A stretch of DNA of 64,000 nucleotides from Arbacia lixula (lineage: Eukaryota > Echinodermata > Echinoidea > Arbacioida > Arbaciidae): assembly GCA_963669155.1 (NCBI GenBank), contig OZ022576.1:11232738-11296737 (forward strand), in the 5' to 3' direction. The notes under the pieces were generated by a model, which ran no database searches, had not been told where the DNA came from, and saw nothing but the letters and a program-made list of their open reading frames with translations. Of the stretch, positions 3,889-62,472 are shown piece after piece. A program made the translations under genes and the position numbers. Position 1 is the first letter of the stretch, and each line of letters begins with the position of its first letter.

Positions 3889-10030
<6,142 letters not shown>

Positions 10031-37853: not shown

Positions 37854-40683
37854 ATGTCGCCGCAACCTTACTGCTCTTCTTGTAAAACAAACGTTTCTTG
37901 CATTTGGAGGAATAAGAAACCGAACACATACGTTTGCAACAGCTGTTTTATCAAGAATAATAACGATGATTCTTCGCAGACTCAGTCTCAGACCAGTTCC
38001 AATGGAAATGGAAAATCGGGTGGTCAAGCCAGTAACGCCAATGGATCCGTCTCGGGGAAGAATCAAGGACCAAGAAGACCAGGGAGACCTGTCAAAAAGA
38101 TGCGGTATAAACAAATAGTCAATGCTGCGAAAGTTCAAGCAACGAAAGGAAAGAACAGGCGTGTCATATTCAAGAAGAATGTAAGTTGCAAACACAATTC
38201 AATCATGACAATTGTGTAAAATTAGATACAGTCTGGGTCCACAAAATTTAGAAAGCTCTTAATTTGTCATAAAAAAAGCACATAGTCTATCATAGAGGTG
38301 TACAAATAATCTTCAAGTCCTAGAACATAATGAAAATTACTTTAAACTTACAGAAATTCTCTAAAACATCTGAAAAAGTAGCAAAATAGATTGTGTTTAT
38401 GTGCCAAAAAATACGTACCTTTACGGTCATTTGACGGTTCTTGTATCGCAATGCATGATAAGACGGAATTCTAGTACGCTCGCATTCAACGATCACTGCG
38501 GTCATTGTTTACAACACTCATGACGCTAGCCATTTCTTTTTTTGCACTTACGTGCGTGGCGCCATCTACATGTAGTGACACATGGGCGTCCCTACCAGCA
38601 GTGATAGCGCTAGCGCAGGCTGCAATAATTATTTTCCAAACGTGTAGCCTCTGACTTCAGCCTTCACGTCACTTTCAGACGTTCTCGGACACATTCGGAG
38701 ATTGCTGGACTAGTACGACGGACACGCATGACATACATTTATGAGGTTTGTGTACGATTGAATGGGGCTTACGGAATCGTGCATGTTACAGTACATGTAT
38801 CTCCCAGTTGCCTGTGCCGTTAAAATTCTGATCATCGGTATTGATTGGGAGAAGAGGTGCGTTAAGGCTTTGCGAAAGGCCCTCTGAGTTGGACACATCC
38901 ACGAAGATGACGGAAGCTACTTGAAGGTTTGGTCAGATTGCTATGCAAACACTATATTGTGTGTACATGCGCAGCAGAGCATGAAAGATTGCTGCTGAGA
39001 GTGCGACTGCCAATGTTAACCTATTAAGGGTGGGGCTGAGGTAGTACAGGACAGCCGTCAAATGCAGTTCCCTCTATATTAAACAATATCTGTGCATAAG
39101 AGATCGGTTGTATGGCGCGCTAACTTAACCATGTTAGTATTATTACCTCTTTTTTTTTGGGGGGGGGGGTAGATACATGTACATTAAAGAGATCTAATGT
39201 TAGTTTTGATTCACACCCTATCTTTATATTTAACATTGAATTTAAACCTTACATCAAAGCCTTGAACTTGTGAAGCCTGTGCATGTACTGCCGATCGGAC
39301 TTCAGAGGAAGTCTGGTCAGCAACTCACTGCTGGCTTCACCCCAGCCCAGGCTGTATAATATCGCTTAATGTCATTCCCCTCTTTGTCTTTCTTTTCATT
39401 TTACAGCCCCTAAAGAGTCCCGAGTCAGTTGCCACTGTTGTCACGTCAGGGAGTGTGTTTCATCAGGTAAGAAGGATCATGATTTTTACTATCGAAAAAT
39501 ACAACAAAAACAAATTTTTGTGTGTTTTAAAATAGCTTCAACTCAAAGAAGTTCTCATGACTCATGTAGCATGTACAAATGTACAGGTGTGAGTATCCGG
39601 TTAAGCTGGTCTTTGTATGTGGGAAGTAACATTTTAGAATTATTTACATGTACATTGTCATATATCTCAAATAATACCATCATTCTAGGCAGTGCTATAT
39701 TCAAATGTTTTCTTGCAATATGATAAACAAAAGTCATATGAATATATGGGCTCACTATGATGTTCCAGTTCCTCATTTTTCTGTATTTTCTTGCGTGTCA
39801 CTCCCGTTTGTCTTTCATTCCTCTCTTTTTGTATTCTTTTTCATTTCAATCTCTTCTCATTATTATTGCTCTAATTTTTGTAATGCCTTTTGTATCCTGG
39901 AGCAGGGTACGTACTTCCAAGTGGGCGACATTGTGTCTCTACTGGACGTAGATGGTGGGATCTACTATGCCCAACTCCAAGGCTTCATGCAAGACCAGTA
40001 TGCGCAGAAGAGCGCCATCATCACCTGGTTACTACCCACACAAGCCACTAACAAGGACAAGTTCGATCCTGCAACGTATATTCTTGGTAAGGAGCAGTGT
40101 CATTTACCGGTATACAAAATGAGTGGTAGTGGTGTACATTATTCTGTATGCTGTACACGGCTTGACACTATCAGGGGCCTGGTACATACGGGTGCCCAAA
40201 TTAAAATTCTGTGCCCATAAGGTTTAGAAAATGTTTAAAAAGGATTTTGGGATCCCCTTTAGTTAGTTGCGTCCTACAAGGAATTTGAAGTTTATTCAGA
40301 GCCTGTTGTCTGTTGTCTGTACAGCAGATTATGCGGAAGCTGTGCTGCCCGGTATCTGTAGAGAAAAGCGAGCCGGCAAAGAGATGGGCTCAGTAAAGAA
40401 CGAGTTAAAAAACGTGTTGAACTTCGTTTCTGTCGCGGTCTTCAATGAAATAGTGAATTAATAGTCATTGTGTAATGTTTTGTGTATTGCAGGTCCGTCA
40501 GAGGAGTTCCCACGGTTACTGGAGTTCATGGAGTTTGTTTGCCACGCGCCATCGGACTACTTCCGGCTCGTCAAGAGCCCTTACCCTGTGGTCCCGGTCC
40601 GGGAGGAGCCGGGCTTCATGTGGTCTAGCGTCCTTCGGAACGGACATCCATCCACCGCACAGATCTTTGGTGGGGAATCATGA
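37854..40683 (+). CDS. GATAD1: GATA zinc finger domain-containing protein 1, 4 exons
   Basis: A nuclear chromatin-associated protein; family members occur in histone-mark reader complexes at H3K4me3 promoters. Exons are 37854-38180, 39407-39466, 39906-40086 and 40493-40683, all GT-AG, giving 252 aa (vertebrate ~269). The N-terminal GATA-type zinc finger is C7-x2-C10-x17-C28-x2-C31. A Ser/Gln/Asn/Gly-rich linker follows, then a basic KGKNRRVIFKKN segment like the family KGKGRRHIFK. The conserved C-terminal domain has YFQVGDIVSLLDVDGGIYYA, GFMQDQYAQKSAIITWLLPT, FDPATYILG and LEFMEFVCHAPSDYF. The Met at 37854 matches the family N terminus. Intron 1 (1.2 kb) and the others contain nothing coding. 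Confidence 0.95.
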
Positions 40684-41007
40684 CGATGTCTTCACCGGTA
40701 TATCACTTCTTGAGAACAATTTGAGTTCCTGATATGCAGTTCAAGTAAGCTGTGTTGACATCTAGATGCAGCCATCAAGTAACAAGTGATGCAATGACTT
40801 ATTTGTGTGAAAAATTACACAATATGGTGTAAATGTTATTGAAAGTGAATGATTGTGTTGGTATGATTTGACTTTTAGAAAGAATTACACCGTAACAACA
40901 TCAATTAGTTGCGTGGTGAATGCTTACAATGTGGAATATATCTTGTATGGGGGAGGTTGGGGTGGGGGTATGGGGTTTTGGGTTGGGTTAACGTTACTGA
41001 ATGCGTA

Positions 41008-41044
<37 letters not shown>

Positions 41045-41899
41045 CATTTGTTTTCACAGCGTTGAAATACCATACATGTTCTGCTGCTCTGAATCAATGC
41101 TATGTCATTGAAAGGAAGGTCCATTTTGACATTACATACACTGGTGATTGAAAAAGAAGTGATGAATTTTACCTACTTTACATCGATGGATTGTCTGTTT
41201 TTCCTACAGTTGTGAATTGGCTGGGAACTGTGGCATTTGTCACCTTTCTAGCTTGTGTTATTGACGAAAGAATGAAGCTGAATTTTTCTAGACTATTTCC
41301 AATTCATATTTACAAAGGAGTTTGCTGTCCCTTACCCTCCACCCTGAACTACCTCCCTTGAAGTTCAGATATCATTTCTTCTCAGGCATAATAAGATTGC
41401 AGACTTCCCATTCCCATTAAACCAGTGGTAGTGAGCCCTGTCCATCGTTGTGTTTGCAGTAGAGGCAGATGGCACACTGTCCTTTATCAAAAATCAATTT
41501 ACTGCTCTGCTAACACCTATGACATTGCCAACCTTTGTAGTTGGAACATTATTCTCCCCCCATATAGCTCCATTGCATATTTTCCCACAGACTTTTTTAA
41601 TACGCTGTAGGTGCACTGTTGTTACCTTCATTCCTTCCATCCACCCTATCAGACTTCCGGGTCCAGTTTGTCGTCCTCCAACATAATAGATCTGTCGTCA
41701 ATTTCATTCAAATCATGCATTCAATTTCTCTTTAAATCACGATTTTTAATTGATTCCATACCTAGCTACAGTATCTGCTTGCTGATGTTCTCTCTTAATT
41801 CCCTAATTTTGTTTTCATTTTCTTATCTTTTGTTCAGTTAATCTGAGCTGTTTTTCTTGTTTGAGCTATTAAGCTAATGTTAATAATGAAAGCCACCAG
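40684..41899. other. GATAD1 3' flank
   Basis: No gene is seen. It contains the (GT)n tract at 41011-41041 and mixed CT-rich sequence. The ORFs on both strands have no coding character. Confidence 0.5.
41011..41041. repeat. (GT)n microsatellite
   Basis: About 31 bp of GT repeats downstream of GATAD1. Confidence 0.9.
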
Positions 41900-42200
41900 C
41901 CATCAAACGTCCATGTATATTTCTTGGACCTGCTTTAGAGTTGTGCATATTGAACCCAGTAAAGCAATGGCAGAAGACACTCTGTACAGCTCCACTCTCT
42001 TTCGTGATAGTAATCCACAGGCTCCAAGGGATATCGCGAATCCTGAGATGGCATACCTGTGGTTCGAAGGAAGCAGAATCTGCTCTCTTGAGCAATGTTA
42101 TGGTATTCCACCTTCTTCATCCACCCAGATGCAAAGTAGCTGTAAGCCTTCAGGTCCTTGTAATCTGATATTAGTCCTTTTCTAAGCGAAATGTCACCTA
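41900..42200 (-). pseudogene. Fragment of a SWIM-type protein related to the 51-53 kb copies
   Basis: The minus-strand reading contains LKAYSYFASGWMKKVEYHN followed by an FLRTTGMPSQ segment. These parallel TAYSYFASTWLKEIFF and FLKAKCTPSQN in the SAP/SWIM gene fragment at 51.5-52.1 kb. The similarity is in order and spacing. The segment is short, has no clear boundaries and is surrounded by other transposon debris, so it is read as a broken relative. Confidence 0.45.
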
Positions 42201-42495
42201 GTGCGTATGTGCCTAAAAATTAATACTGAGCTCATGCAACATAGTACATGTACTCATGTGCTTACTACATTTGTTTTATATGAGTGTAGTAATACACACA
42301 CAAACAAAATAACCATAAAAAACTACTGACACTAGCGAATTCCAGCCATGTAAGTGTAAAACACAACTTGTGTACCCATATATTGAACAAATTTAATGGT
42401 TCTTTCCATGATAAGCTCATTGATATTCATAAATCACGTTTTTTGCGATGTCGGGCACTTAATTTCCAATATTGTATCATGGTCTATGCCACCAT

Positions 42496-43402
42496 TAAGG
42501 CTGGCACCCAACCAACTCCCTTCTGGTCTAACAATTAGACCTGCTAGCTCAACATGGCAACTAGAATCCTGCTCAAATTATTCTCTTGCTGTTGTTCATG
42601 CTTGTGTGTCCATGTGTCTGGGCAGCATTCCCTGTGAAGCAGGGATCCAAGTGGTTCTCAATCCACCTTGTGGGGTCAGTGTCTTGCCGTTGCGGCACAG
42701 CTACTTGTGATGGACAACTTCCGTTGAGATGTCCAAAGAGCAGATATCTGATTCACCATCTTTGTTGCATGACTGTGTGCCCGAGTCTCGTCACCAGAAT
42801 ATACTCACAAAATTCCTTGCACGGAGCATACTGGTGATACGTTTCAAGAATAATCGGTTGAGTCATCAACATTTCATCTGTTGAACAGTCGTCAGTCATG
42901 AAAACTGCTGGACCTTGGTGGCCTCTGCTTCCAAAGCTCTTGTCCAAAAGCAGGGTGGTGTAGAGCTGAAGAGCTGACTTGATGACTGCTTCAGACTCTG
43001 AAGTTGTTGTCACCAATGGGTAAACCACCAACGCAACTGTGGTTCAACATCAAAAAGACGCTACTGCCATGACGATCCATATTTGATGAGGAATCCATAA
43101 AAACTAGTTCCCCAGAGTGCTTCAGTTCCTCGCCGATATTTTGACCCCCTACCTTGCAGACCCCCTTGCGCTCGATCTAGCTTTTCATCTTTCATAGAAG
43201 TAAAGAACATGAGGCGATGTCTCCTCCACCATCCATTTGCATGGACCCTCATTTCTGTTTTCTGCATAACCTCTCGGCTGTGTTCCATGGAATCGAGCAT
43301 TGCCGTACCACATGCCACATTGTTCTCATCTGCGATAGCTTCCAAAATAGGCGGAGCTACCTCAACTGAATTTGGGTTGTCGGGTTCGGAGACCACTTTC
43401 CT
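42496..43402 (-). repeat. Duplicated block, copy A (paired with 45757-46650)
   Basis: The sequence from aaggctggcacccaacc to the RAG1-like segment near 43400 recurs almost base for base at 45757-46650, in the same orientation, with small indels such as a 2-bp TG difference near 42603. Each copy carries, on the minus strand, a RAG1-like piece followed by a MULE-like transposase piece. The two blocks flank the Mutator-type transposase gene. Confidence 0.85.
42753..43090 (-). pseudogene. MULE-type transposase domain fragment (copy A)
   Basis: The minus strand encodes PLVTTTSESEAVIKSALQLY and GPAVFMTDDCSTDEM. The second is the MULE-type catalytic-Asp region (family pattern: ..FMTDD.. followed by an alanine- or glutamate-rich helix). 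The upstream part, equivalent to LLFMDSSSNMDRHGSNVFLM in copy B, is out of frame here and interrupted. Compared with copy B it has several small indels. No N- or C-terminal part of a complete MULE protein is present, so it is a dead fragment. Confidence 0.55.
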
Positions 43403-43924
43403 TTTGTAGCAGCGAAACAATGATGACAGGGTATGAGCACTCATTTTGAGATTCAGGGCTTGAAATAGTCTGTTGCGACTTTGCTCTGCGCCACAGTTGA
43501 ACGCCAGAACAGAAAGATTTGTTGCTATGCGAACAACACGTGGACTTCTCCACAGGTGTTTGGGACACCTTTTCCAGATGAGAGAATTTAAACTCTCATT
43601 CTGGTTTTGGGTGTACCTTGGGAGGCACCTCTCTATGAGGTCAGGAGCACTAAGTCGCTTGAATGTAGGCAAGAGTAGATCAAGAAACACCACATCAAGG
43701 TGATGGTCTTTGTCTACCATACTGCCTTTATTTTTATACTCACACCATTCGCCGTCTGGGCAGTACTGATGACGCACCTCATTATCAGGAAGTTTGACTT
43801 CATGATAAAGAACTGCCAACACTGCCCTTTGTATTTTCTCAACTGCCTTATTCTTGACCTTATCATCCTTGATCACTAAGTCGCTTGAATGTAGGCAAGA
43901 GTAGATCAAGAAACACCACATCAA
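43061..43924 (-). pseudogene. Chimeric ORF: Mutator-type transposase C-terminus fused to a RAG1-like segment
   Basis: This is an open frame of 287 residues. Residues ~17-175 are the C-terminal half of the Mutator-type transposase encoded at 43863-45739, including QNQNESLNSLIWKRCPK with the likely catalytic Glu110. At about 43402 the sequence switches, in frame, to a RAG1-like segment (residues ~177-258): EPDNPNSVEVAPPILEAIAD, then SREVMQKTEMRVHANGWW and KDEKLDRAQGGL. This matches RAG1 core blocks [31 protein letters not shown] and DEKLVREVEGL in order and spacing. After ~258 the frame leaves the RAG1-like sequence and MULE-like sequence follows in another frame. The N terminus is an artefact of the 226-bp duplication. 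Confidence 0.7.
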
Positions 43925-44099
43925 GGTGATGGTCTTTGTCTACCATACTGCCTTTATTTTTATACTCACACCATTCGCCGTCTGGGCAGTACTGATGACG
44001 CACCTCATTATCAGGAAGTTTGACTTCATGATAAAGAACTGCCAACACTGCCCTTTGTATTTTCTCAACTGCCTTATTCTTGACCTTATCATCCTTGAT
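43648..44099. repeat. 226-bp exact-looking tandem duplication inside the transposase
   Basis: Bases 43648-43873 and 43874-44099 are near-identical direct repeats; both begin CACTAAGTCGCTTGAATG or its equivalent after CTTGAT. The unit is not a multiple of three, so it shifts the reading frame of the transposase. The first copy in coding order ends at a stop (KRLSDQG) at 43863. The rest of the protein continues in the other frame. Confidence 0.9.
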
Positions 44100-45739
44100 C
44101 ACTACTTTACTATTACGACGAACTGCATTCCTATAAAACTTACTTAACCTACCTATTGCCCCTGTATCTTTAGTCCCTGTTAGCCTACCCTTACCTCCCC
44201 CCACTGACTTCCCATCTGACAATTTCTCACCTTTCTTTACATCTTTACGAACTTTGTCTAATGCATTAGACATCCTTTTCCCCACATGACCTACACAATC
44301 TAACTTTTCTACCAATTTATTTTCACACGTACCATATGTTTCCCTAACTTTATTGAATGATTTACTATCCCTATCACTTAACCTAAGATTATGTTTATCT
44401 ACAGACCTACCCCACATTCTAGCTGCTGCTTCAACCTCCATCATCCCACTACTTCCCTCATGATTAGCTAAACATTCTTCTTCATGACCCTCCCACCATT
44501 CCCTGTACTCATCCCCTTCCCTATCCCAATCCTTCCTAACATCACACTCTTTACATATCTTAAACAAAACTTCAAAATCTAATACCTCCCCAGTATCCAT
44601 AGAAATTACTAATGCCACCCCATGATTGGAACGATGGCCACGCCTATGCCATGTCCCATCAAATGACACTGCCACTTCCACCACATCCCCCTCCTTGATG
44701 CTCCTGTCTTCCTTCATTGCAGCCCTCCGGAGGTGTTGGGCGGCTTCAGACATTTGTTGCTCACAAACCTACATGTAGAAAGCAAAAGGAGAAAAAAAAG
44801 CCTTGTATAAATACTAGCATGTATGATGTCCCAAAGTAATATAGAAATGAATAAAAATGTTTGTAAGTTAAAGTATTATGAATATGAAAATATAATCACC
44901 TCTGTAGACGTTGAAGAGAGAAGAGCCAAATGGGTCTGAAAACTGTGGTCGGCCACAGGAGGAGGCAGCCCGAGGATGGCACAAAAATCTGAGAGGGCCT
45001 CTCGTCCCAAACCATTCTCAGAAGCCGCCAAGACAGATCTTCGGTTGGCCTCTGCAGACTGTCCAGGACCCTCTGCTACGTTGCTACTGGTGCGAAAAGC
45101 TTGTTCCTGATGGCAGATAGAACAGCTCAGCACCAGTGTACTGCAGAGCCCAACCCGCTTGGTCTGGTCTTCATGGATAATCAGCCTCCCTAAGCCCAAA
45201 AATCAGACATGTAACTGTAAGCTTCATGTTTGAGATTGCATGACTTCACACTTTACTTCTTTACTTACCTCTGGCTCCCAAGATCTACTGATTAATTAAG
45301 ATCCCATATGAAATGTATGTAAAAAATACAGGTATAATGTTATTTATGCTTTTAAAAATGACAAAGCCAAGTCTGATTTTGTATGCATTTCAATTCAATC
45401 AAAATTCGAATTCATTCATTCATTTCACCCATATTTCAATAAATCAAGATAAAACAGCAAGAAAATTGGTAAATCATACTAAAAAGAGTATAATGAATAG
45501 ATGAAAACTCCATAAAACTTACCTCCTGGACATAAATGAGCATTGCCAAGAGCAGCTGCCAGCAGTCCACCATCAATGAGAAAGCTGCCCTCCAAAGCTG
45601 CACATGGATTGGCACATGTGGGACTGGGATCGGAAATTCCAGCCTGGAGCTTCCTTACCGACACTGGATCAGTTATTGCCTCTTCTTCTGTCTCCTGTCC
45701 CATTTTTTGCCTTTTAACCACATGATGTGGTACCCCCAT
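43863..45739 (-). pseudogene. Mutator-type (PF20700-like) transposase, three exons, frameshifted by the tandem duplication
   Basis: A DNA transposase of the Mutator-like family common in invertebrates. Exons on the minus strand are about 45739-45523 (first Met MGVPHHVVK), 45189-44900 and 44768-43863, with GT-AG boundaries and consistent phases (1, then 0). The DDE core follows: SFDGTWHRRGHRSNHG (Asp32 of the last exon counted from MSEAAQH), HEGSSGMMEVEAAARMW, SDRDSKSFN (second Asp) and DCVGHVGKRM with SDGKSVGGGKGRLT. The catalytic Glu lies beyond the duplication, in the 43061-43924 ORF (QNESLNS). Without the 226-bp duplication the protein would be continuous. It is therefore a recently broken copy or an assembly duplication. 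Confidence 0.75.
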
Positions 45740-45756
45740 GAACCCCTTCCTTTTCT

Positions 45757-46650
45757 TAAGGCTGGTACCCAACCAACTCCCTTCTGGTCTAACAATTAGA
45801 CCTGCTAGCTCAACATGGCAACTAGAATCCTGCTCAAATTATTCTCTTGCTGTTGTTCATGCTTGTGTCCATGTGTCTGGGCAGCATTCCCTGTGAAGCA
45901 GGGATCCAAGTGGTTCTCAATCCACCTTGTGGGGTCAGTGTCTTGCCGTTGCGGCACAGCTACTTGTGATGGACAACTTCCGTTGAGATGTCCAAAGAGA
46001 AGATATCTGATTCACCATGTTTGTTGCATGACTGTGTGCCTGAGTATCGTCACCAGAATATACTCCTCACAAAATTCCTTGCACGGAGCATACTGGCAAG
46101 ACGTTCCAAGAATAATCTGTTGAGTCATCAACATTTCATCTTTTGAACAGTCGTCAGTCATGAAAACAGCTGGACCTTGGCGGCCTCTGCTTCCAAAGCT
46201 CTTGCCCGAGAGCAGGATGGTGTAGAGCTGAAGAGCTGACTTGATGACTGCTTCAGACTCTGAAGTTGTCACCAATGGGTAAACGACCAACGCAACTGTG
46301 GTTCAACATCAAAAAGACGTTACTGCCATGACGATCCATATTTGATGAGGAATCCATAAATAGTAGTTCCCCATAGTGCTTCAGTTCCTCGCTGCTCACT
46401 ACCTTGTAGACCCCCTTGTGCTTGATCCAGCTTTTCATCTTTCATAGAAGTAAAGAACATGATGCGATGTCTCCACCATCCATTTGCATGGACCCTCATT
46501 TCTGTTTTCTGCATAACCTCTCGGCTGTGTTCCATGGAATCGAGCATTGCCATACCACATGCCATATTGTTCTCATCTGCGATGGCTTCCAAAATAGGCC
46601 GAGCTACCTCAACTGAATTTGGGTTGTCGGGTTCGTAGACCACTTTCCTT
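45757..46650 (-). repeat. Duplicated block, copy B (paired with 42496-43402)
   Basis: Direct repeat of copy A, about 3.26 kb away. It also has the Mutator-to-RAG1-like junction: it keeps about eight codons of the Mutator part (LFRCYRRK) before diverging at about 46668. Both copies therefore descend from one chimera rather than two independent fusions. Confidence 0.85.
46012..46438 (-). pseudogene. MULE-type transposase domain fragment (copy B)
   Basis: The minus strand encodes SSEELKHYGELLFMDSSSNM and then DRHGSNVFLMLNHSCVG, the first MULE-type Asp block (family: MD.. plus a VFLLLTHSS..G.PLG segment). After a small frameshift near 46270 it gives PLVTTSESEAVIKSALQLY and GPAVFMTDDCSKDEM. No intact termini exist. 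The fragment joins directly to the RAG1-like segment at about 46390, but in a different frame. Confidence 0.6.
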
Positions 46651-46667
46651 CTGTAGCAGCGAAACAA
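46385..46667 (-). pseudogene. RAG1-like segment (copy B of the Mutator fusion)
   Basis: Open frame with KVVYEPDNPNSVEVARPILE, SREVMQKTEMRVHANGWW and KDEKLDQAQGGLQG. These are the same RAG1-like blocks as in the chimera at 43061-43924 and in the last tandem unit at 47386-47883. It lacks the upstream catalytic-Asp block because the junction removed it. Downstream it meets MULE-like sequence. Confidence 0.65.
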
Positions 46668-46669
46668 AT

Positions 46670-47385
46670 CGGGTGGGGGAGGACCTTGGACCGTGTTATA
46701 TATTTACATATATTTCTCAACAGCCCAGTTTACAGAGTTTTAAAACAAAATGCAGCGGAAGACTTATTAATTATGTAATATGAAAATAATTGTTAAAGTA
46801 TCATATCACATCTTCCCCACCATATCGATGTACAAGAATAAGAGCGACAATCACATCAGATTACTCAATCAATTCATTCATCATCAATCATCCACATTCA
46901 ACACATGCCTATTACTACTTAATACAAGTAAAGCATACAGGATACTAAATGTAGATAAGATATTTAAAGGAGTTATATATTGTTTCTTTTAATTTCATGA
47001 ATGAATAAAGAGAATATAAAAGTATTTACGATATTTACAAAGAACTGTTAAATTATGCTAATAGCATATTTACTAATTAGTGGCACGCATGTGCACACTT
47101 ATGTAACACCTTTAACTTAAAGGACTTTCAAGGACAATAAACTTAAATCAACTGATCTTCATTCTTAATACGAGGTTCTCAGATTTAATTGGGATTGTGA
47201 AGTTTCTGACACGTCATTGTATGTTCTCTTCTCGATGAAGAACTTGAAAGTGTAATATCGTGCAGGTCTGGTTAGGAAATCTTGGACATGTCTGTCTCTT
47301 TCAAGATTCAGCAGCAAAGAGCTGTTGAGAATGGCACTTAGGACACACAGCTACTCCACTTGTCAATCAACTAAACAATGTTCTC
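46670..47385. other. AT-rich spacer without genes
   Basis: No ORF looks coding and no repeat is evident. It separates duplicated block B from the RAG1-like tandem units. Confidence 0.5.
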
Positions 47386-47883
47386 TTATCCATAAATACT
47401 AGTTCCTTGCTGATATTTTTCCCCCCTACCTTGTAGACCCCCTTGCGCTCCATCCAGCTTTTCATCTTTCATAGAAGTAAAGACCATGAGGCGATGGCTC
47501 CTCCACCATCCATTTGCATGGATCCTCATTTCTGTTTTCTGCATAACCTCTCGGCTGTGTTCCATGGAATCGAGCATTGCCATACCACACGCCACATTGT
47601 TCTCATCTGCGATGGCTTTCAAAATAGGCCGAGCTACCTCCACAGAATTTGGGTTGTCGGGCTCGTATACAACTTTCCTGTCATCCCCGACGTACACTTC
47701 ACATTTGACTACAGCAAATGCCGCACGGAAAGCTTTGTCTGGCAGCAGTCTGTCACTGGCCTCCTTCGTGACACTGATGTCCCCCATCCCATCAGCACCA
47801 TCCTTGACCGTGGTGTAGATTAGATGGTCATCTGTAGGGTCTAGCCTACACTTCAAGAGCCCATTCTCTATGTCACTGTCCAA
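47386..47883 (-). pseudogene. RAG1-like core fragment, tandem unit 1 (longest copy)
   Basis: This 165-codon frame matches the RAG1 recombinase core from the pre-RNase H region into the RNase H fold. DSDIENGLLKCRLDPTDDH parallels RAG1 MEEDILEGMR..DLDDY. VKDGADGMGDISV parallels VKESCDGMGDVSE, so Asp31 is equivalent to the first catalytic Asp (D600 in mouse RAG1). LLPDKAFRAAFAVVKCEV parallels VPEKAVRFSFTIMK, and EPDNPNSVEVARPIL plus IADENN parallel [20 protein letters not shown]. It continues to MQKTEMRIHANGWW and DEKLDGAQGGLQ, then breaks at a donor-like CAAG/GTAGGG. The second and third catalytic acids are absent. The frame upstream of 47883 stays open through WPYPHALAKILKEL. A RAG1-like origin is inferred from remembered family motifs. 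Confidence 0.75.
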
Positions 47884-48015
47884 TTCTTTGAGGATCTTGG
47901 CGAGTGCATGGGGATATGGCCATTCTACACCCCTAAGTTTGGAACAGGGAGCTCCAGTTGCTCCTTCACTCCTCCCCTCCCAATGACGGTTGGCTCGAAC
48001 GATATGTTCCCATAT

Positions 48016-48316
48016 TCAACGTGGGCTGCGCCAGCCTTCACAGGAGTGGTGAATGAGCTTAGCCCCTCCATCTAATTGAAACCGGATGCTGCCAGGCATG
48101 TATGACTTCTCCAATTCATCCAATATATGGGGCGGCTTCAGTGAGTTATCTGCTTTGGTCTTGAGAAGGCGATACTGTTCTTTGTATTTTTTCTTTGATG
48201 TTAGTGTTGAGATGCGCATTGCAAGGCAATCATCTGCAGTTACGTGTACAGTCAACTCGTCTCTCCATGAAGACAATACATATACAGAGACAGAGAAATT
48301 CCTGTTGCTTGATGAT
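48016..48316 (-). pseudogene. RAG1-like exon (nonamer-binding-region side), tandem unit 1
   Basis: An acceptor (tcctgggcag) ends at 48317. The exon then reads SSWRDELTVHVTADDCLAMR, ISTLTSKKKYKEQYRLLK, and KPPHILDELEKSYMPGSIRF. This parallels RAG1 [20 protein letters not shown] and HALRNAEKVLLPGYHPFEW in order and spacing. A 2-nt loss at the LIHH codons, relative to unit 2, shifts the frame to a stop (SCEGWRSPR). Confidence 0.65.
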
Positions 48317-48522
48317 CTGCCCAGGATATAGGGAATAATAAGGATGAATCATATTTACTTTATGTTACCTTTATATATGCATTAAATGAACTAATTTTGC
48401 TATCGATCTGAAAGATTCTGCAAAAGAATTTACACAAAGAAATTTACAATATCACAAATCCATGGAGATGGATACGTCGGCTTCTTTAGTCCTGCTTCGA
48501 GCATATTTACGCCCCACATCTT

Positions 48523-48852
48523 TCAAGCTGGCTTTTGCGCTCCACACAGGCACACACACTGTGCATTGTTTTCATCCGCGATAGCTTCCAAAATAGGCGG
48601 AGCTACCTCAACTGAATTTGGGTTGTCGGGTTCGTAGACCACTTTCCTGTCATCCCCGACGTACACTTCACATTTCACTTCAGCAAATGCTGCACGGAAA
48701 GCTTTGTCTGGCAGCAGTCTGTCACTGGCCTCCTTCATGACACTGATGTCCCCCATTCCATCAGCACCATCCTTGACCATAGTGTAGATTAGATGGTCAT
48801 CTTTAGGGTCTAGCCCACACTTCACTAGCCCATTCTCTATGTCATTCTCCAA
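48523..48852 (-). pseudogene. RAG1-like core fragment, tandem unit 2
   Basis: Same block as unit 1: ENDIENGLVKCGLDPKDDH, VKDGADGMGDISVMKEAS with the first catalytic Asp, RLLPDKAFRAAFAEVKCEV, and EPDNPNSVEVAPPILEAIAD. The RAG1-like sequence stops at ADENN, where the next tandem unit begins with AQCVCLCGAQKPA and a stop. It therefore lacks the later blocks present in unit 1. Confidence 0.7.
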
Positions 48853-48893
48853 TTCTTTGAGGATCTTGGCGAGTGCATGGGGATATGGCCATT

Positions 48894-49287
48894 CTACACC
48901 CCTAAGTTTGGAACAGGGAGCTCCAGTTGCTCCTTCACTCCTCCCCTCCCAATGACGGTTGGCTCGAACGATATGTTCCCATATTCAACGTGGGCTGCGC
49001 CAGCCTTCACGGGAGTGTGGTGAATGAGCTTAGCCCCTCCATCTAATTGAAACCGGATGCTGCCAAGCATGTATGACTTCTCCAATTCATCCAATATATG
49101 GGGCGGCTTTAGTGAGTTATCTGCTTTGGTCTTGAGAAGGTGATACTGTTCTTTGTATTTTTTCTTTGATGTTTGTGTGGAGATGCGCATTGCGAGGCAA
49201 TCATCTGCAGTTACGTGTACAGTCAACTCGTCTCTCCATGAAGACAATACATGTACAGAGACAGAGAAATTCCTGTTGTGTGATGAT
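48894..49287 (-). pseudogene. RAG1-like exon (nonamer-binding-region side), tandem unit 2
   Basis: The best preserved of the three. An acceptor ends at 49288. It reads through CLAMRISTQTSKKKYKEQYH, SYMLGSIRFQLDGGAKLIHH and on to HVEYGNISFEPTVIGRGG and EQLELPVPNLGV before a stop. The stop arises from a 2-nt (GT) excess at GGGGTGTAG. Without that excess the frame would run straight into the core block at 48852 (VEWPYPHALAKILKEL). Confidence 0.65.
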
Positions 49288-49500
49288 CTGCCCAGGATAT
49301 AGGGAATAATAAGGCTGAATCATATTTACTTTATGTTGCCTTTATATATGCATTAAATGAACACTGAATTAATGTTGCTATCGATCTGAAAGTTTCTGCA
49401 AAAGAATTTACACAAAGAAATTTACAATATCACAAATCCATGGAGATGGATACGTCGGCTTCTTTAGTCCTGCTTCGAGCATATTCACGCCCCACATCTT

Positions 49501-49830
49501 TCAAGCTGGCTTTTTCGCTCCACACGGGCACACACACTGTGCATTGTTTTCATCTGCGATGGCTTCCAAAATAGGCCGAGTTACCTCCACAGAATTCGGG
49601 TTGTCGGGCTCGTATACAACTTTCCTGTCATCCCTGACGTACACTTCACATTTGACTACCGTAAATGCAGCACGGAAAGCTTTGTCTGGCAGCAGCCTGT
49701 CACTGGCCTCCTTCATGACACTGATATCCCCCATCCCATCAGCACCATCCTTGACCGTGGTGTAGATTAGATGGTCATCTCTAGGGTCTAGCCCACACTT
49801 CACGAGCCCATTCTCTATGTCACTGTCCAA
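49501..49830 (-). pseudogene. RAG1-like core fragment, tandem unit 3
   Basis: DSDIENGLVKCGLDPRDDH, VKDGADGMGDISVMKEAS with the first catalytic Asp, LLPDKAFRAAFTVVKCEV and EPDNPNSVEVTRPILEAIAD. It is interrupted at ADENN by the boundary with unit 2, in the same way as unit 2. Confidence 0.7.
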
Positions 49831-49962
49831 TTCTTTGAGGGTCTTGGCGAGTGCATGGGGATATGGCCATTCTACACCCCTAAGTTTGGAACAGGGAGCT
49901 CCAGTTGCTCCTTCACTCCTCCCCTCCCAATGACGGTTGGCTCGAACGATATGTTCCCATAT

Positions 49963-50287
49963 TCAACGTGGGCTGCGCCAGCCTTCACAGGAGTGGTGAA
50001 TGAGCTTAGCCCCTCCATCTAATTGAAACCGGATGCTGCCAGGCATGTATGACTTCTCCAGTTCATCCAATATATGGGGCGGCTTCAGTGAGTTATCTGC
50101 TTTGGTCTTGAGTAGGCGATACTGTTCTTTGTATTTTTTCTTTGAAGTTAGTGTTGAGATGCGCATTGCAAGGCAATCATCTGCAGTTATGTGTACAGTC
50201 AACTCGTCTCTCCATGAAGACAATACATGTACAGAGACAGAGAAATTCCTGTTACAATATTCCTGTTGCTTGATGACCTGCCTAGGA
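49963..50287 (-). pseudogene. RAG1-like exon (nonamer-binding-region side), tandem unit 3
   Basis: Reads SSWRDELTVHITADDCLAMR, TSKKKYKEQYRLLKTKADNS and EKSYMPGSIRFQLDGGAKL, then the same frameshift to SCEGWRSPR as in unit 1. The acceptor differs from the other units (cctaggcag/gtcatca), and a short insertion (about 12 nt) follows it. Confidence 0.65.
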
Positions 50288-50429
50288 TATAGGGAATAAT
50301 AAGGATGAATCATATTTACTTTATGTTGCCTTTATATATGCATGAAATTAACACTAAATTAATTTTGCTGAAACTTTCTGCAAAAGAATTTACACAAAGA
50401 AATTTACAATTAACAAATCCATGGAGATG

Positions 50430-50535
50430 GATACGTCGGCTTCCTTAGTCCTGCTTTGAGCATATTCACGCCCCACATCTTTCAAGCTGGCTTTTGCGCT
50501 CCACACGAGCACACTTATTTCCGTCCATGTGTTCG
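50430..50535 (-). pseudogene. Short exon-like segment upstream of the RAG1-like exons (repeated in units 1 and 2)
   Basis: On the minus strand an acceptor-like aatgaaacag ends at about 50534 and is followed by sequence open in two frames. One reads EISVLVWSAKASLKDVGRKY and ends in SISMDL. The other reads HEHMDGNKCARVERKSQLER and ends at a GTAAAT donor-like site. Partial copies recur at about 48460-48550 and 49440-49530. It may be the preceding RAG1-like exon, but the correct frame is unclear. Confidence 0.3.
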
Positions 50536-50983
50536 TGTCCCTGTTTCATTATTTTTTAAAAGAATTTGAAAATGGGTAAAAATGATGGGCCATTTCACCA
50601 CTTTCAAGATATATCTTTTAACATCAAATATAAAGTAAAGTGGTAAACCTTGCAATAAATAATCACGTAGAAAAGAGTGTTCTGAAGAAAATTTTCATGA
50701 ATAGATATGCTGAGAACGTCATAACCTATCTTGTTATATTGATCTTCTCACAAGCATAAATGATAAATAACAAATACAAACATATAAAATAGATAGAAGT
50801 TCATGTATACAGGTTATGCATCTATTGTTCATACTGAAGAATGTCCACTTGATTTGGGAAATCAACCCCGATCTTTGTGTGGTTGTACAAATGTACAACA
50901 TGGGGAATACACTGATCAGTTTTGTCCACTGTCGCAACATGTTCGCCACTTTTCTTCTATAGGTTACTTGTATTATTCACAAA
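50536..50983. other. No recognised gene
   Basis: AT-rich spacer between the RAG1-like units and the SWIM-type gene fragments. The ORFs on both strands lack coding character. Confidence 0.4.
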
Positions 50984-51041
50984 TCACTGAATGAACATGA
51001 TTATAGTGAAGACATATTTCAAATAAAAGGTATCATACACA

Positions 51042-51205
51042 CCTTTGCCATAGTGGTGTCTCTCCCAGCTGACGTCATTCACCCTGCGAGGGAGTACTAT
51101 CACTCCCGTGGAAGCAGCGATCCAGCTGTTTGCCACTGATGCGCATGATGGGTTGATGAGTCCACTCTTGAAGGTATGGTCCATTTTAAAGAGCATGACA
51201 GCCAT
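51042..51205 (-). pseudogene. Exon of the SWIM-type gene downstream of the zinc-binding motif
   Basis: Reads NHMAVMLFKMDHTFKSG, then INPSCASVANSWIAASTG, and ends HHYGK at a donor (GTGTGT). The NHMAVMLFKMD start resembles the C-x-H plus hydrophobic helix that completes a SWIM finger (family: C.HV.ALLF), but the expected Cys is not seen. The start is displaced by an inverted repeat (CCATATGATTTG / CAAATCATATGG, 51202-51228). Related invertebrate proteins carry a YqaJ-type nuclease domain after this point; none is seen here. Confidence 0.45.
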
Positions 51206-51495
51206 ATGATTTGGGACAAATCATATGGGAGGGAAATGTAGAAATAAATGTATGTTAAACTGTAATCAGGCTTTTACTGTTATTTTCAATGATGTATTTA
51301 ATCATGTGAAAAAATGTCATGTTCAGGTTTGTGTTATTGCACACATAAGCTTCATAAAAAGTAGAAAGCATTATTTAAAATTTATGTTTTATTTGTTGCC
51401 TGAACTGTTTTATAAAGCAATCCTGAAAAAAAACACATTTAGGTATAAAAATCAATCTGAAAGAAAAAAAAAGAGAAGGGGGCGGGGGGAACTAC

Positions 51496-52106
51496 TTAAC
51501 CACCAACACAGGTGCAGTAAGCTGAACAGATAGCTCCATCATCTTTACGGCACATGACCCATGCATCGTGGGGCTCTCCTTGGATGTTTTGTGATGGCGT
51601 ACACTTTGCTTTTAAAAAGCAATATAGGCTGTCTCCCATAGGGTGAAAGAATATCTCTTTCAACCAGGTACTTGCAAAGTAGCTGTAAGCTGTGCCCTCC
51701 TTGTAGTCCTGCATGATCCTCCCTTGCAAGGACACAGTGTCATTTTCCAAAAGGTATAAACAAATGTCTCTGTACATTGCAGGTGGCCAATTCTTCATCC
51801 CCTCCTGCTCCCCTATCCATCCATCCTCCAGCTCACTGATAGGGTCAGGCAAGTTCTCACCATTATACTGCAGAAGCTCCCTATAAGTTCTGGCCGTGCT
51901 CTCTGACTTTCAACTTCTGATTGCAGAATGGGTATGCCCAGTGTCACTGCTGCAAAAACCAAAGCAATCATGTCCCCCCTGTTGCCAAGTTTGAGCCCTC
52001 TTTTGCGTAGAAAGTCCCTGAGGGCTTCTGTAGTCCACTGCGATATCTTCTCTCTTGATAAACCACAGTCCACATCTAGGTCATCAGCCATGCTCTTGAG
52101 CCTCAA
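51496..52106 (-). pseudogene. SAP + SWIM-type protein fragment (unit 1)
   Basis: The start (MRLKSMADDLDVDCGLS) is followed by a SAP-like motif, WTTEALRDFLRKRGLKLGNR with GDMIALVFAA, as in DNA-binding SAP domains. After one frameshift near 51885 the frame continues with NLPDPISELEDGWIGEQEG, TAYSYFASTWLKEIFFH, FLKAKCTPSQNIQGEPHDAW, and AICSAYCTCVGG, the C-x-C half of a SWIM finger. This layout matches a family abundant in cnidarians and echinoderms that often carries a YqaJ nuclease domain. The frameshift makes this copy probably dead. Confidence 0.55.
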
Positions 52107-52659
52107 ATAAAATGAGAAATATTAAGGGAAATTTCTTTGTAAAATGATAATTAATTACAATGTTAATTACAATGTTTTACAATTACTTTTGTAATGTCTT
52201 GTGGAGTAAACACAACAGAAAGTAAGCCATGCCAAAAGAATACCATACCACTCATAAATCCTACCATTTGCTTTAGAAATATACATCCATTTTCTTTGTT
52301 ACACATGTAGATCTGCATGTTTACATTATTAATGGTGTAATACTGATATTGCAGAGTGAAAAATGCTTATTTACATTTAAGAGGCATTTCACACTTGAAA
52401 AAATAAAATCCAAGTAACAGAAGAGTTTTTTTTTTCTTGAAAATAATATCATAGACTTTGTATTGAAGAAGTTTCAGCACCTCCTCACATTGTTTTGGCA
52501 TAGAATTTGCATAATTCATAAAAAGTAGGAAGCATTATTTCAAATTAATGTTTTATTTGTTGCCCGAACTGTTTTAGAGAGCAATCCTGAAAAAAAAAAC
52601 ATGTAGTTATCAAAATCAATTTGAAAGAAAAAAAGAGAAGGGGGGGGGGGGGGGGACTA

Positions 52660-53216
52660 CTTACCCAGCAACACAGGTGCAGTAAGCTGAACTGATAGCT
52701 CCATCATCTTTACGGCACATGACCCATGCAGGCTCTCCTTGGATGTTTTGCGACGGCGTACACTTTGCTTTTAAAAAGCAATATAGGCTGTCTCCCATAG
52801 GGTGGAAGAATATCTCTTTCAACCAGGTACTTGCAAAGTAGCTGTAAGCTTTTCCCTACCTGTAGTCCTGCATGATCCTCCCTTGCAAGGACACACTGTC
52901 ATTTTCCAGAAGGTATAAACAAATGTCTCTGTACATTGGAGGTGGCCAATTCTTCATCCCCTCCTGCTCCCCTATCCATCCATCCTTCTGGCTCGTGCTC
53001 TCTGACTTTCAACTTCTGATTGCAGAATAGGTATGCCCAGTGTCACTGCTGCAAAAACCAAAGCAATCATGCCCCCCCCCCCCCCCCCCCCCTGTTGCCA
53101 AGTTTGAGTCCTCTTTTGCGCAGAAAGTCCCTGAGGGCTTCTGTAGTCCACTGCGATATCATCTCTCTTGATAAACCACAGTCCACATCTAGGTCATCAG
53201 CCATGCTCTTGAGCCT
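52660..53216 (-). pseudogene. SAP + SWIM-type protein fragment (unit 2)
   Basis: A second copy of the same coding region. SAP-like LRDFLRKRGLKLGN is broken by the poly-C tract. The segment between the SAP part and ISELEDGW is deleted, and the SWIM half-motif remains. It is more degraded than unit 1. Confidence 0.55.
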
Positions 53217-53614
53217 AAAATGAAATGAGAAATATTAAGGGAAATTTCTTTGTAAAATGATAATTAATTACAATGTTTTGCAATTACTTTTGTAATGTCT
53301 TGTGGAGTAAACACAACAGAAAATAAGCCATGCCAAAAGAATACCATACCACTCATAAATCCTACCATTTGCTTTAGAAATTTACATCCATTTTCTTTGT
53401 TACACATGTAGATCTGCATGTTTAGATTATTAAGGGTGTCATACTGGTATGGCAGAGTGAAAAATGCTTATTTACATTTAAGAGGCATTTCACACTTGAA
53501 AAAATAAAATCCAAGTAACAGAAGAGTTTTTTTTCTTGAAAATAATATCATAGACTTTGTATTGAAGAAGTTTCAGCACTTCCTCACTTTGTTTTATGCA
53601 TATAATTTGCATAA

Positions 53615-54992
53615 TTACATGAATATTTAAAAAACACAGAAAAACAAAGAATAAACTTCAAATTCTATCTACTCTGCTATCATTCTTTTTCCATGAAATT
53701 TGGCATACATATGACACCAGACACTCACACAAACATCACACACACAATTCCACTGCACATGCACTGCACTAACAACGCAGTATAGATCTGCAATTTACCC
53801 CGAGTGCCCATACACACAACGCAACCTTATGCACACACATTCCACGATTATCGTTTAATTTAAATGTTGTTCTAGTTTTACTTTGTCATTCCAACACACA
53901 GTGCATGCTTTCCCCCCACCCGGTGGCCCAAACACCACAAGCAACATGTGGCCATGCTGCGCGATCACCTACCCGCGTACAATGATTGATATATGTGGAT
54001 GCATCAACGCTCACACTTGATCACCGAATTCACCCATACACTGCATGCATAAGTCGAGCGACGCTCATTTGGATTGCCACAGTTTCCTGCAGTTAAACCA
54101 TTGTCTACCTAATTTCAAATGTACACATACAGCACAGTCATACAAAAACACACACACACAAACATGCATCCATACATAAAGAACATTATTCATGTACAAG
54201 GGCTGAATGCTACTCTTCGTTCTTTTCCTATTTTGTTGCTTGCTTTCTCTCTTTCCAACACACTTTCTCTTCTTTTTCCCACTACTCTTCCTCTCTTTTC
54301 CCTGTATTTTCCTTTTTTCTTTCAGTATTTCCTGTTTTATCCCTTTCTCTAGTTTACCTCTGAGACATTAAAGCATCATCACCATAAAGAATTTGGAAAG
54401 ATCCTGTAAAAGTATAAATTTAAAGAGAAAAAAAAAAATCATGACAATATTTAACTAACCATTCTATTTTTTCTACATCAACAGGTGGCGATGATTTAGC
54501 AGAACTTCATAATTCACTGTAAATTGTGTTAGCATTAATTCCGGACTAGAAATATACTTTTTTTACTCCATTTAGCCAGTAGTCCATGGTAGTCAGAGTG
54601 CCGAGACGAAAGTGAGACTTTGTCTGAGAGAGATAGAGGAAGGGGACCCAAATGTAATTCCATAATAAGACCCAGAATCAAATAACAGAACATTACAGAA
54701 GTCAAGACGATGGGCAGACTTTCTCACAGATAAGAAATTAACGAATAGCAATATCAATGACAATGTCAATCAGTGAATGACAACATTTTAATTGTCAATT
54801 CAATGGGCTGACGTTGAAAACATAAATTGCATAGTTTGGGACTAGTCTGTAATGACTGTGTGGTTGTCATGAATCTAAAATAAGACTAAAAAGGGAGCAT
54901 TGTGGGTAGTTTGAGAGTTTCATTATTTATATACAAAAAAACGGAGATTAAGACACATATATCAGAGACAATCGACAATGTTTCAAACTCAC
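53615..54992. other. No recognised gene
   Basis: AT-rich, with CA-rich and CT-rich patches (about 53720-54170 and 54240-54350). If the HARBI1-like gene at 54993-55245 were intact, its later exons should lie here on the minus strand. None is visible. Confidence 0.45.
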
Positions 54993-56854: not shown

Positions 56855-57563
56855 ATTCACGACATGTTGACGGTGGAGGTTCGCATGTTGACATTAGAGG
56901 TTCGCATGTTGACATTAGAGGTTCGCATGCTGACAGTAGAGGTTCGCGTGGAGGAGCTGGCTCGCCTTCACGGCATGTTGACAGTAGAGGTTAGCATGTT
57001 GACAGTAGAGGTTCGCATGTTGACGGTGGAGGTTCGCATGTTGACAGTAGAGGTTCGCATGTTGATGGTGGAGGTTCGCATGTTGACAGTAGAGGTTCGC
57101 GTGAAGGAGCTGGCTCGCCTTCATGGCATGTTGACGTTGGAGGTTCGCATGTTGCCAGTAGAGGTTCGCATGTTGACGGTGGAGGTTCGCATGTTGACAG
57201 TAGAGGTTTGTATGGAGGAGCTGGCTCGCCTTCACGGCATGTTGACGGTGGAGGTTCGCATGTTGACAGTAGAGGTTCGCATGTTGACGGTGGAGGTTCG
57301 CATGTTGACAGTAGAGGTTTGTGTGGAGGAGCTGGCTCGCCTTCACGGCATGTTGACGGTGGAGGTTCGCATGTTGACAGTAGAGGTTCGCATGTTGACG
57401 GTGGAGGTTCGCATGTTGACAGTAGAGGTTCGCATGTTGACGGTGGAGGTTCGCATGTTGACAGTAGAGGTTCGCGTGAAGGAGCTGGCTCGCCTTCATG
57501 GCATGTTGACAGAAGAGGCTCGCGTGGAGGAGCTGGATCGCCTTCACGTGGGGGGTCAGGAGG
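56855..57563. repeat. 21-bp minisatellite with higher-order structure
   Basis: The array is about 0.7 kb and made of 21-bp units of two alternating types (GTTGACGGTGGAGGTTCGCA and GTTGACAGTAGAGGTTCGCA, each plus T). It is interrupted at roughly regular intervals by a ~30-bp spacer (GGAGGAGCTGGCTCGCCTTC type). Because 21 and 30 are multiples of three, several frames stay open on both strands. Confidence 0.95.
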
Positions 57564-59867: not shown

Positions 59868-60378
59868 CTGTGATATAATAATTAAAAATGAAATGTATTA
59901 ACATTACATGGAACATGTTGAGGTAAAATAGAGTAGAAGAGGCCGAACTTAGACCCCGCCTTCAAAATTAGAAAGTGTAACTCGAGAGCTGATTCCTCCT
60001 GAGTCTGATTCTGAGACATTGTTCAAATCCAAAGCCAACTAACATAGAATTTAGAAATCTAAAATTTTAAGCCAGATTGAAAAGTTTGAGATTCTCAATT
60101 GGGAATACGTTAGAAATGAATATAAAATAGTTTCACACGACTAACAATTATAGTAGACCTATTACTAGATTATATATCTAAATGTTGATCTAACAGTCAA
60201 TTAGCAAGCTTGCTGCACAGGCTCTTTTCTCCCAACAAACAACAGCCAACACAGTGCAAGTGCAACAGACACAAAATCACACACACACCGAAACAGACGG
60301 AAGGACTGCATCATGCATGCCCTGAGGCTGAGCCGCACCGGCCAGCCAGTAGAGTTCGACTTGGATAGATCTACTTAC

Positions 60379-60711
60379 CCTCGTCCTCTCTCTTTTCTCG
60401 GCCACCGATTGTCTCTTTGCTTTTTTCTCCTCCTTCCAGCTTCTGCTTCTGATCTTCGGAAATGCATCCGGCTTCAATTTTCTCACGCGCTTCATATTAA
60501 ACAGTGAATGTAGCCCTTCATCAAAATCATCGTCGTCAAAATGTGCACTGCACACTACACTGCTCTCACTGGGGCCATGCCAGTTTGCCCGAGTAAGACG
60601 GACTTTTGCAATCCACAATTTCTTTTGATTTGGGTCTCTTGGGAAAAGATGCAGGCTAACACCATCCTCTTTAGTGTTGCTGCATCCTCCTACGATGCAT
60701 CTTGATGGCAT
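60379..60711 (-). CDS. THAP zinc-finger domain exon
   Basis: The Met at 60709-60711 starts MPSRCIVGGCSNTKEDGVSL. The C2CH THAP finger is C5, C10, C54, H57 (VVCSAHF), with the conserved HLFPRDP, Trp33 and Trp44, and an LKPDAFPKI block equivalent to the AVPTIF motif. A basic tail (WKEEKKAKRQSVAEKRERTR) ends at a consensus donor (GTAAGT). THAP domains bind DNA and occur at the N terminus of several transposase families and of host regulators. Joined to the next two exons it forms a THAP-linker-DDE gene. By itself the exon is intact. Confidence 0.8.
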
Positions 60712-61599
60712 TCTTGCGAAAAATCAATAAAACACCCGCTGAAGTTGACAAAACAAAACAAGAACAAACAACGAGAACGCGGCTCCACGCAATGATACGT
60801 AAACACAATGGCAAGAAACTTTCGCGCACTCGGATTCGCGATACCGACGTTCTGGAGATGACGTCAGGTCACGTGATTTGCAAGTCGAGCTTCGTTTGAC
60901 AAATTTTAAGGGGCGGGGCTTAATAGCGAGGGAAATCCCTTAATTAATGAAGGAAAATCATTGTAACTCATTAACCATTCATTTAAAAAAAATAGGAAAA
61001 ACGGGAAAAGTGTTCTTTTAATAATTTCTACACGATGGGAAGCATACATATTTTGATTGCATGGAACCTTTAATATACATGTACGTTTCACAAAAACTGG
61101 GTATTTTTAACATTATTAGACAAGAACTTCAATTTCACATGTATTATAGTAAAACATGCTGATCATGTGAAATTATAACAGAGTTTATTGTGTGTATAAA
61201 TTGTGGAATACAATAATATAAGAACATGCAATTCACTAATAAACATACTATACAAATAATGTACTAAACACAGTATAAACAACTATATTCTATAAGATGT
61301 AGAGTTTTGTTTGGTCGTTAGCCCGATATTTTCAGTGTCATATAGAAATGGGGAAAAAGTACATGAATTGAACAGAACTGACAGAAGTAAATGTAAAGTA
61401 TAGATACAACATGCTTTGAATAGTAATCACACAAGAGATATAATTCCCATTTTAGCTTTCCAAAAGTCTAATATCTACATGTACATAATTATATCTGTGC
61501 CATGTAACATAGTCATATACAGTCATGATTACCATATTACGGCTCAAAATGTTTTGCAAGTTCAGCATTTTTATGAACTTTGTTCATGCAGTCCCTTTC
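60712..61599. other. No recognised gene
   Basis: AT-rich spacer between the THAP gene and the piggyBac-like fragment. A TCACGTGATTTG motif lies at about 60870. Confidence 0.45.
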
Positions 61600-62472
61600 T
61601 CATTTGAAACAAAAATGGTGTTTACAAAAAGTCTGGACTTTGTACACCTTCTTGCTTTCATAATAACACAGAGCACAGTTGCCCCTTTTTTCAGTCCAGA
61701 CTATGCTATAGCTATGACAATCAGCTGGAAAAAAGGGGTTTGTATGCTGATCGGTCTCCTTCTTTTTTGTTTTGGTTTGTTTTGTTTTTTTCACAGTGCT
61801 TGTTTCAGTTCCATTTGTTTGACCAAATTTTTCAATAAGATTTTGAACCAATTCTTCCCTGAACTCAAGTTGGCCATATTTCTTCTTGCGTTTCAGGCCG
61901 GGTATTCTTGGGTGATCTTTTCTCCATTCTTGAAATAAAATAAAACTGTTCACCACAGCTAAGTCAACTATATGATAAAACAAGGTCATCCACCATCTAT
62001 TTACTTTCTTTAGTATATTGAACTTGGCAATGAACTGATCAGAAAGATCTACTCCTCCCATATTTTTATTATACTCTGCTATAGCAATTGGCCGATCTAT
62101 CTCAACTTCGTCCCATTTTCCTTCCTTATTTTTAACTTTTCTTTTCACTTGATCAATCACATCAGCTCTGTGTATTGTAGACATGATTGTAACTATTTTC
62201 TTATCCTTCCATTGTCGGTACAATGTGCCGTTTACATCTCTGTACCATCTCCCATTGCCCCTCTGGGTTTTTTTGAAGCCCTTCAGGTCTTTCTTCAATT
62301 GCTTGGGGTATTCCTTCCTGTTTGGCGCTGCTGTGCCACAAGCAAAAGTTTTTTTCTGAAGAAGGAGTTGGAGCAACGTTGGACTTGTATAAAAATTGTC
62401 AATGTAGATATGGTATCCTTGGTTCAACAGAGTTTCACAGAGCTCCATGACAACATCATAGCCAATACCATG
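61600..62472 (-). pseudogene. piggyBac transposase (PGBD-like), C-terminal half
   Basis: The open frame runs from an in-frame TAA (62473-62475) to a stop at 61600. Counting from MELCETLLN (62448), the DDE core shows Asp17 in YHIYIDNFYTSP, then CGTAAPNRKEYPKQL, QWKDKKIVTIMST, and YNKNMGGVDLSDQ with Asp134 and Asp137. A C-terminal Cys/His-rich finger follows (CALCYYESKKVYK, CKHHFCF). The N-terminal half, including the first catalytic Asp, is missing because the upstream sequence switches at about 62475. The remaining 282+ codons have no stop or frameshift, so the truncation may be fairly recent or due to 5' rearrangement. Confidence 0.85.

Follow-up and report, generated by a model that had tools for sequence, protein, structure and literature searches.

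The window analysed here, a stretch of 64,000 nucleotides from the sea urchin Arbacia lixula, carries minus-strand copies of a partial RAG1-like (RAG1L) gene, which raises the question of whether this species keeps a RAG1L gene in use or the remains of one. RAG1L sequences are known in echinoderms, amphioxus, hemichordates, molluscs, nemerteans and cnidarians (PMC7204232), and a larger survey reported 786 of them, mostly partial sequences, in 173 species (PMC9435367). A sequence-only reading of the window had drawn its interest from the rarity of RAG1-like transposons; this argument is weak, as the host belongs to the sea urchins, and in four species studied earlier 3-7 RAG1L matches were counted per genome, with about 60% of the matches treated as potential pseudogenes (PMC9885083). 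As described in the same study, RAG1L was paired with RAG2L at one or more loci in every one of the four species (at two loci in H. pulcherrimus), the unpaired RAG1L gene of P. lividus was expressed, RAGL loci were almost never found at the same place between urchins, and the transcriptome of Arbacia punctulata was among those screened (PMC9885083). Since clustered urchin RAG1L pseudogenes are already known, the A. lixula array represents a further case of that kind. Very probably, it is the decayed remnant of RAG1L transposase/recombinase genes, locally duplicated and rearranged.

Judged by profile and structure matches, the copies are firmly supported as RAG1-like homologues. The catalytic blocks of copies A, B and C (Table 1) matched the Pfam RAG1 profile PF12940 above its curated cut-off of 25 bits (E-values of 8.8e-16, 1.8e-10 and 5.7e-12, respectively), and the short copies D and E matched it below the cut-off (0.059 and 8.4e-5). 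Among solved structures, the top match of copy A was 6b40_A (E=1.6e-47, 165 bits), which we take to be amphioxus RAG1L, a label backed by PMC7204232. Vertebrate RAG1 structures followed with 58-64 bits (E of 1.9e-16 to 1.4e-14), and no Transib chain appeared among the structure matches to copy A up to E = 10. Identical residues amounted to 90 of 181 (50%, counted from the alignment) with amphioxus RAG1L, and to 52 of 169 with the RAG1 of 6xnx, presumably a mammalian one. In a residue-by-residue alignment, the positions of copy A facing RAG1 D600 and D708 were both Asp (numbering transferred from the 1040-residue chain of 6oem, presumably mouse RAG1), and the DEKLD motif of the D708 region was also kept in copies D and E. 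The sequence-only reading, which had recognised RAG1 by eye and had the first catalytic Asp kept, was borne out on both counts, and the equivalent of D708 can be added; the peptides it quoted are all present in the translations.

The tandem array (47401-50514, minus strand) is made of three units of about 975 bp each, starting 969-990 bases apart and 93.6-94.0% alike across long matches. Copies D and E hold 83-84 codons of the RAG1L tail each, D708 motif included, and their protein identity to copy A reaches 88% and 86%, respectively. The five RAG1L copies are found within a 7.4-kb stretch (43.1-50.5 kb) of this echinoid genome. Three tandem minus-strand copies of about 980 bp had been described at first; the units stand, with a length of about 975 bp, while the count has to be raised to five to accommodate D and E.

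Table 1. Features of the RAG1L locus and of its immediate surroundings (positions in the window)
Feature	Position	Strand	Match or measure
Copy C, tandem RAG1L unit, frameshifted	49533-50514	minus	PF12940 5.7e-12 for ORF 49501-49962
Copy B, tandem RAG1L unit; 3' part assigned to the second RAG1L variant	48555-49532	minus	
Copy B, ORF crossing the supposed intron	48894-49319	minus	
Copy A, longest copy: unit and tail extending beyond the residue equivalent to RAG1 D708	47401-48554	minus	
Copy A, stop-to-stop frame of 209 aa, corresponding to RAG1 residues ~557-725	47386-48015	minus	6b40_A E=1.6e-47
Copy D, short RAG1L tail	46399-46649	minus	PF12940 only 0.059
Module with copy D and a transposase-like piece	45756-46667	minus	929 bp (alignment length)
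Inner part of a Mutator transposon, both ends missing	43418-45759	minus	PF20700 6e-38
Near-exact tandem duplication breaking the Mutator frame	43645-44104	minus	period 226 bp, 99.6% over 234 bp
Copy E, short RAG1L tail, in frame behind the truncated Mutator transposase	43149-43402	minus	
Module with copy E and the same transposase-like piece	42495-43420	minus	94% like the D module

The homology falls into two blocks, covering amphioxus RAG1L residues 61-167 and 179-361. The upstream block (CLAMRISTLTSKKK...) aligned with residues 56-139 of amphioxus RAG1L (4.7e-12 for copy C) and with residues ~466-519 of vertebrate RAG1; alone against PF12940, it scored 11.6 bits in B (0.075) and 22.7 bits in C (3.2e-5), both below 25. 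It had been assigned to the nonamer-binding side of RAG1, but it aligns instead with residues ~466-519, whose domain limits we take to be those of the dimerisation/DNA-binding region and slightly beyond. The two blocks had also been read as two exons with an intron between them. They rather form a single exon, since the open reading frame of copy B runs continuously across the supposed intron and the stretch between the blocks has the same number of residues as in amphioxus RAG1L (counted by eye). The reading frame is not intact: all three long copies share a frameshift that puts the two blocks in different frames, A and C have a further 2-base deletion in common, and a stop closes the RAG1L frame of both B and C 13 residues beyond the unit junction. 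Further upstream, each unit contains a stretch that looks like an intron by eye, and the presumed upstream exon (50390-50545) gave no RAG1 match, whether taken singly or together with the following exon. Open frames remain in copy A (209 aa) and copy E (292 aa), from which a short peptide could still be produced.

Silent and replacement changes were counted between copy pairs, which are not independent of each other in these tests. In the catalytic block, 13 silent and 10 replacement changes separate A from B (dS 0.192, dN 0.040, Fisher p 3e-4), 16 and 10 separate B from C (dS 0.245, dN 0.040, p 1e-5), and 6 and 9 separate A from C (dS 0.081, dN 0.036, p 0.11). The tail showed 9 silent and 8 replacement changes for A-E (p 0.003), 7 and 8 for A-D (p 0.017), and 4 and 6 for D-E (p 0.13), and the upstream block 3 and 4 for A-B (p 0.20), 3 and 2 for A-C (p 0.09), and 6 and 4 for B-C (p 0.01). 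When changes were placed at random with an equal number of transitions, keeping stop-free runs only (5000 runs per pair), the observed silent count was reached in 3 runs for A-B, in none for B-C, in 1356 for A-C and in 26 for A-E. As the differences between the two copy types (A/C against the 3' part of B, D and E) are mostly silent (dS about 0.2, dN 0.04), the source genes would once have been constrained, and this purifying signal may long predate the locus.

The intron-like stretches differ by 3-6% only (4 of 139 positions for A-B, 7 of 130 for A-C and 8 of 137 for B-C), which argues that the 3' part of B has another origin than the remainder of that unit. Five silent sites set B, D and E apart from A and C; the 3' part of B, together with D and E, derives from a second RAG1L variant, as opposed to the A/C type. 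A block of 146 bp including the frameshift shows 0-1 differences among A, B and C, and this near identity suggests gene conversion. The earlier description of the locus as a degenerate fragment of a formerly active element fits both the silent excess between copy types and the broken frames.

Neither the third catalytic acid of RAG1 (E962) nor its C-terminal domain was found, as no match extended beyond position 349 of the 653 profile positions, on the scanned window strands or genome-wide. The window scan covered positions 33001-60000 of the minus strand and 38001-47000 of the plus strand, in three frames each with stops read as X, and selected ORFs elsewhere. Within these two stretches no further RAG1 match and no RAG2 or kelch match was obtained at E <= 0.1, and the plus-strand stretch yielded no Pfam match. 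RAG2L was not found genome-wide with PF03089, a result that says little, as the control was likewise silent. In S. purpuratus, the RAG pair has Rhpn1 as a neighbour. No RAGL TIRs were recognised in the window by pattern search or among inverted pairs: the protostome TIR pattern matched once (at 4772) for 2.27 matches expected by chance, and out of 22 inverted pairs only the weak pairs I2 and I4 (78-83%) bracket the array, neither of them starting with CAC. Echinoid RAGL were reported as lacking TIRs in PMC9885083. As both the third catalytic acid and a whole core are missing, recombinase function is most likely absent today.

The search for RAG1L was extended to the A. lixula assembly (606,990,701 bases in 590 contigs, the window being C1:11232738-11296737), for which the genome paper reports 98.01% BUSCO (PMC11310861). 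Contig C590 (15,740 bp) carries COX1, in which 2 AAA codons stand at sites that usually have Asn in animal COX1, and ATA codons at sites that usually have Ile, consistent with the echinoderm code. Among the best-scoring candidates, the RAG1 profile matched 4 of 5, all in the window, copy D being missed; the protein of copy A matched 5 of 5 and the upstream-block protein 5 of 8, again all in the window, with two of the latter being small flanking pieces. The DNA of copy A gave 5 matches, all in the window. RAG1 was found in 0 of 14 control genomes, so these copies alone serve as positive control. Because the profile search scored copy E, with its 88 profile positions, a whole RAG1L should have appeared; since matches were drawn from the best candidates only, the controls were devoid of RAG1 and copy D was missed, a copy at another place in the genome could escape if it is very short or divergent. 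From these searches, RAG1L is apparently confined to the window locus, with no intact copy. Viral contigs showed 8 pattern matches and zero relatives. No report of RAG1L in A. lixula was present in the literature searched, and 'rag1' is absent from the main text of the genome paper (PMC11310861). The finding of no intact RAG1L in this species may be new.

The DNA of the modules carrying copies D and E had no match outside the window in the genome DNA search. For their transposase-like part, distant relatives were found at the protein level at five places elsewhere (5 of 7 matches). This piece may be MULE/ZSWIM-like; Pfam gave an E-value of 0.12 only, and the two relatives that were scanned had no supporting match. 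The inner part of a Mutator transposon meets module E at 43418, where the two share 3 bases, and module D at 45756-45759, where they share 4. Full 4.26-kb copies of it are found on C15, C7 and C6, alike mutually at more than 99%, and the window pieces are 96-99% like them. One ORF (43061-43939) encodes the Mutator transposase in frame with the RAG1L tail of copy E. As the window Mutator is devoid of both ends and its joints share 3-4 bases, this ORF is best read as a breakage joint.

Other repeats were observed around the locus. The duplication of 226-bp period in the Mutator gene is either very recent or an assembly error. The 4.26-kb Mutator of L030 (2599-6875; also in L031 and L032), which has similar ends (..TTAAGGGGGCAC..) and is >99% identical on three chromosomes, appears recently active. 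Upstream of the array, two adjoining copies of ~1.1-1.2 kb (51344-53616), 92% alike, gave a SAP-domain match slightly below cut-off, and the flank at 50515-51340 had no close copy, with three weak matches of 72-74% over ~100 bases. An array of 29 copies of a 21-bp repeat (56863-57475) has several frames open on both strands. Two minus-strand ORFs encode a DDE_Tnp_1_7 transposase (61600-62472), presumably piggyBac-type, and a THAP domain (60277-60723).

Explanations other than decay were weighed against these results. The array could be a still-used, repurposed short RAG1L gene with repeated exons, comparable to the unpaired type II RAG1L known from other urchins, and the expression of the unpaired RAG1L of P. 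lividus (PMC9885083) gives this idea a precedent. The silent excess between variants, the near identity of the 146-bp block in A, B and C and the presence of open frames of 141-292 aa would agree with it. However, gene conversion explains the 146-bp block equally well, A, B and C share the frameshift in their mid-region, the RAG1L frames of B and C meet a stop shortly after the unit junction, and D and E are cut from their context, E being joined to a foreign transposase. Continued use as a gene is thus considered unlikely. A Transib or another DDE transposase in place of RAG1L is the least credible of all readings: although RAG1 and Transib have a common core (PMC4411706), the best matches were to RAG1L and then to RAG1, with no Transib chain among them up to E = 10, and Pfam yielded RAG1 alone for these copies.

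Hardly more credible is the capture of a RAG1L fragment by a Mutator-type transposon, resulting in a chimeric transposase that would have spread it, as might be read from copy E lying in frame behind the Mutator transposase. The C15 copy has its own C-terminus at the joint, and it aligns over 4.26 kb with the copies on C7 and C6. RAG1L DNA of the window was matched in none of the 9.5-kb stretches from C15, C7 and C6, the RAG1L tail has no match outside the window, and the window Mutator lacks both ends, its joints showing matches of 3-4 bases. Capture is largely refuted on the basis of these three close copies; other Mutator relatives are more distant (68-76% alike).

The preferred reading, decay of RAG1L genes at this locus, would involve several steps. 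At least two RAG1L variants, whether working genes or mobile elements, would once have evolved under purifying selection. RAG1L fragments would then have been left at one locus and multiplied by local tandem duplication, the variants being partly mixed through recombination or gene conversion, and fragments would have been joined at 3-4-base matches to Mutator and to another transposase-like repeat.

Whether A. lixula lost every intact RAG1L and kept only these fragments appears evenly balanced. If it did, the species would be a natural knock-out for asking what RAGL do in urchins, and RAGL genes would be dispensable. A true absence of intact RAG1L would mean that urchins can lose their domesticated RAGL genes, and such a loss would bear on how frequent and how firm the recruitment of RAG transposons has been outside vertebrate V(D)J recombination. 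The locus adds an urchin of the Arbacioida to the RAG1-like record, with at least two RAG1L variants that were presumably constrained in the past.

Compared with known systems, the A. lixula locus resembles the type II (unpaired) RAG1L of S. purpuratus, P. lividus, H. pulcherrimus and L. variegatus (PMC9885083) in its core homology, its small cluster and its partial or pseudogenised state, as well as in its unrecognised TIRs and in the lack of a RAG2L detected beside the array (a weak test). Unlike these, A. lixula showed no intact RAG1L in genome searches, and its copies are mixed with Mutator and transposase-like pieces in 7.4 kb. With the RAG1L of amphioxus ProtoRAG (6b40), the locus shares half of the aligned catalytic-core residues (90 of 181) and the equivalents of D600 and D708, whereas ProtoRAG has a complete core and its proteins make up an active transposase together with RAG2L (PMC7204232); A. 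lixula displays a middle piece only. TransibSU of sea urchin, starfish and oyster (PMC4411706) offers a parallel in echinoderm RAG1L elements described as fossilised insertions, although the elements described there have RAG2L and longer coding regions (PMC4411706). Vertebrate RAG1 is a complete host gene for V(D)J recombination, in contrast to the broken fragment of A. lixula, which still has 52 of 169 residues and the same two acids in common with it.
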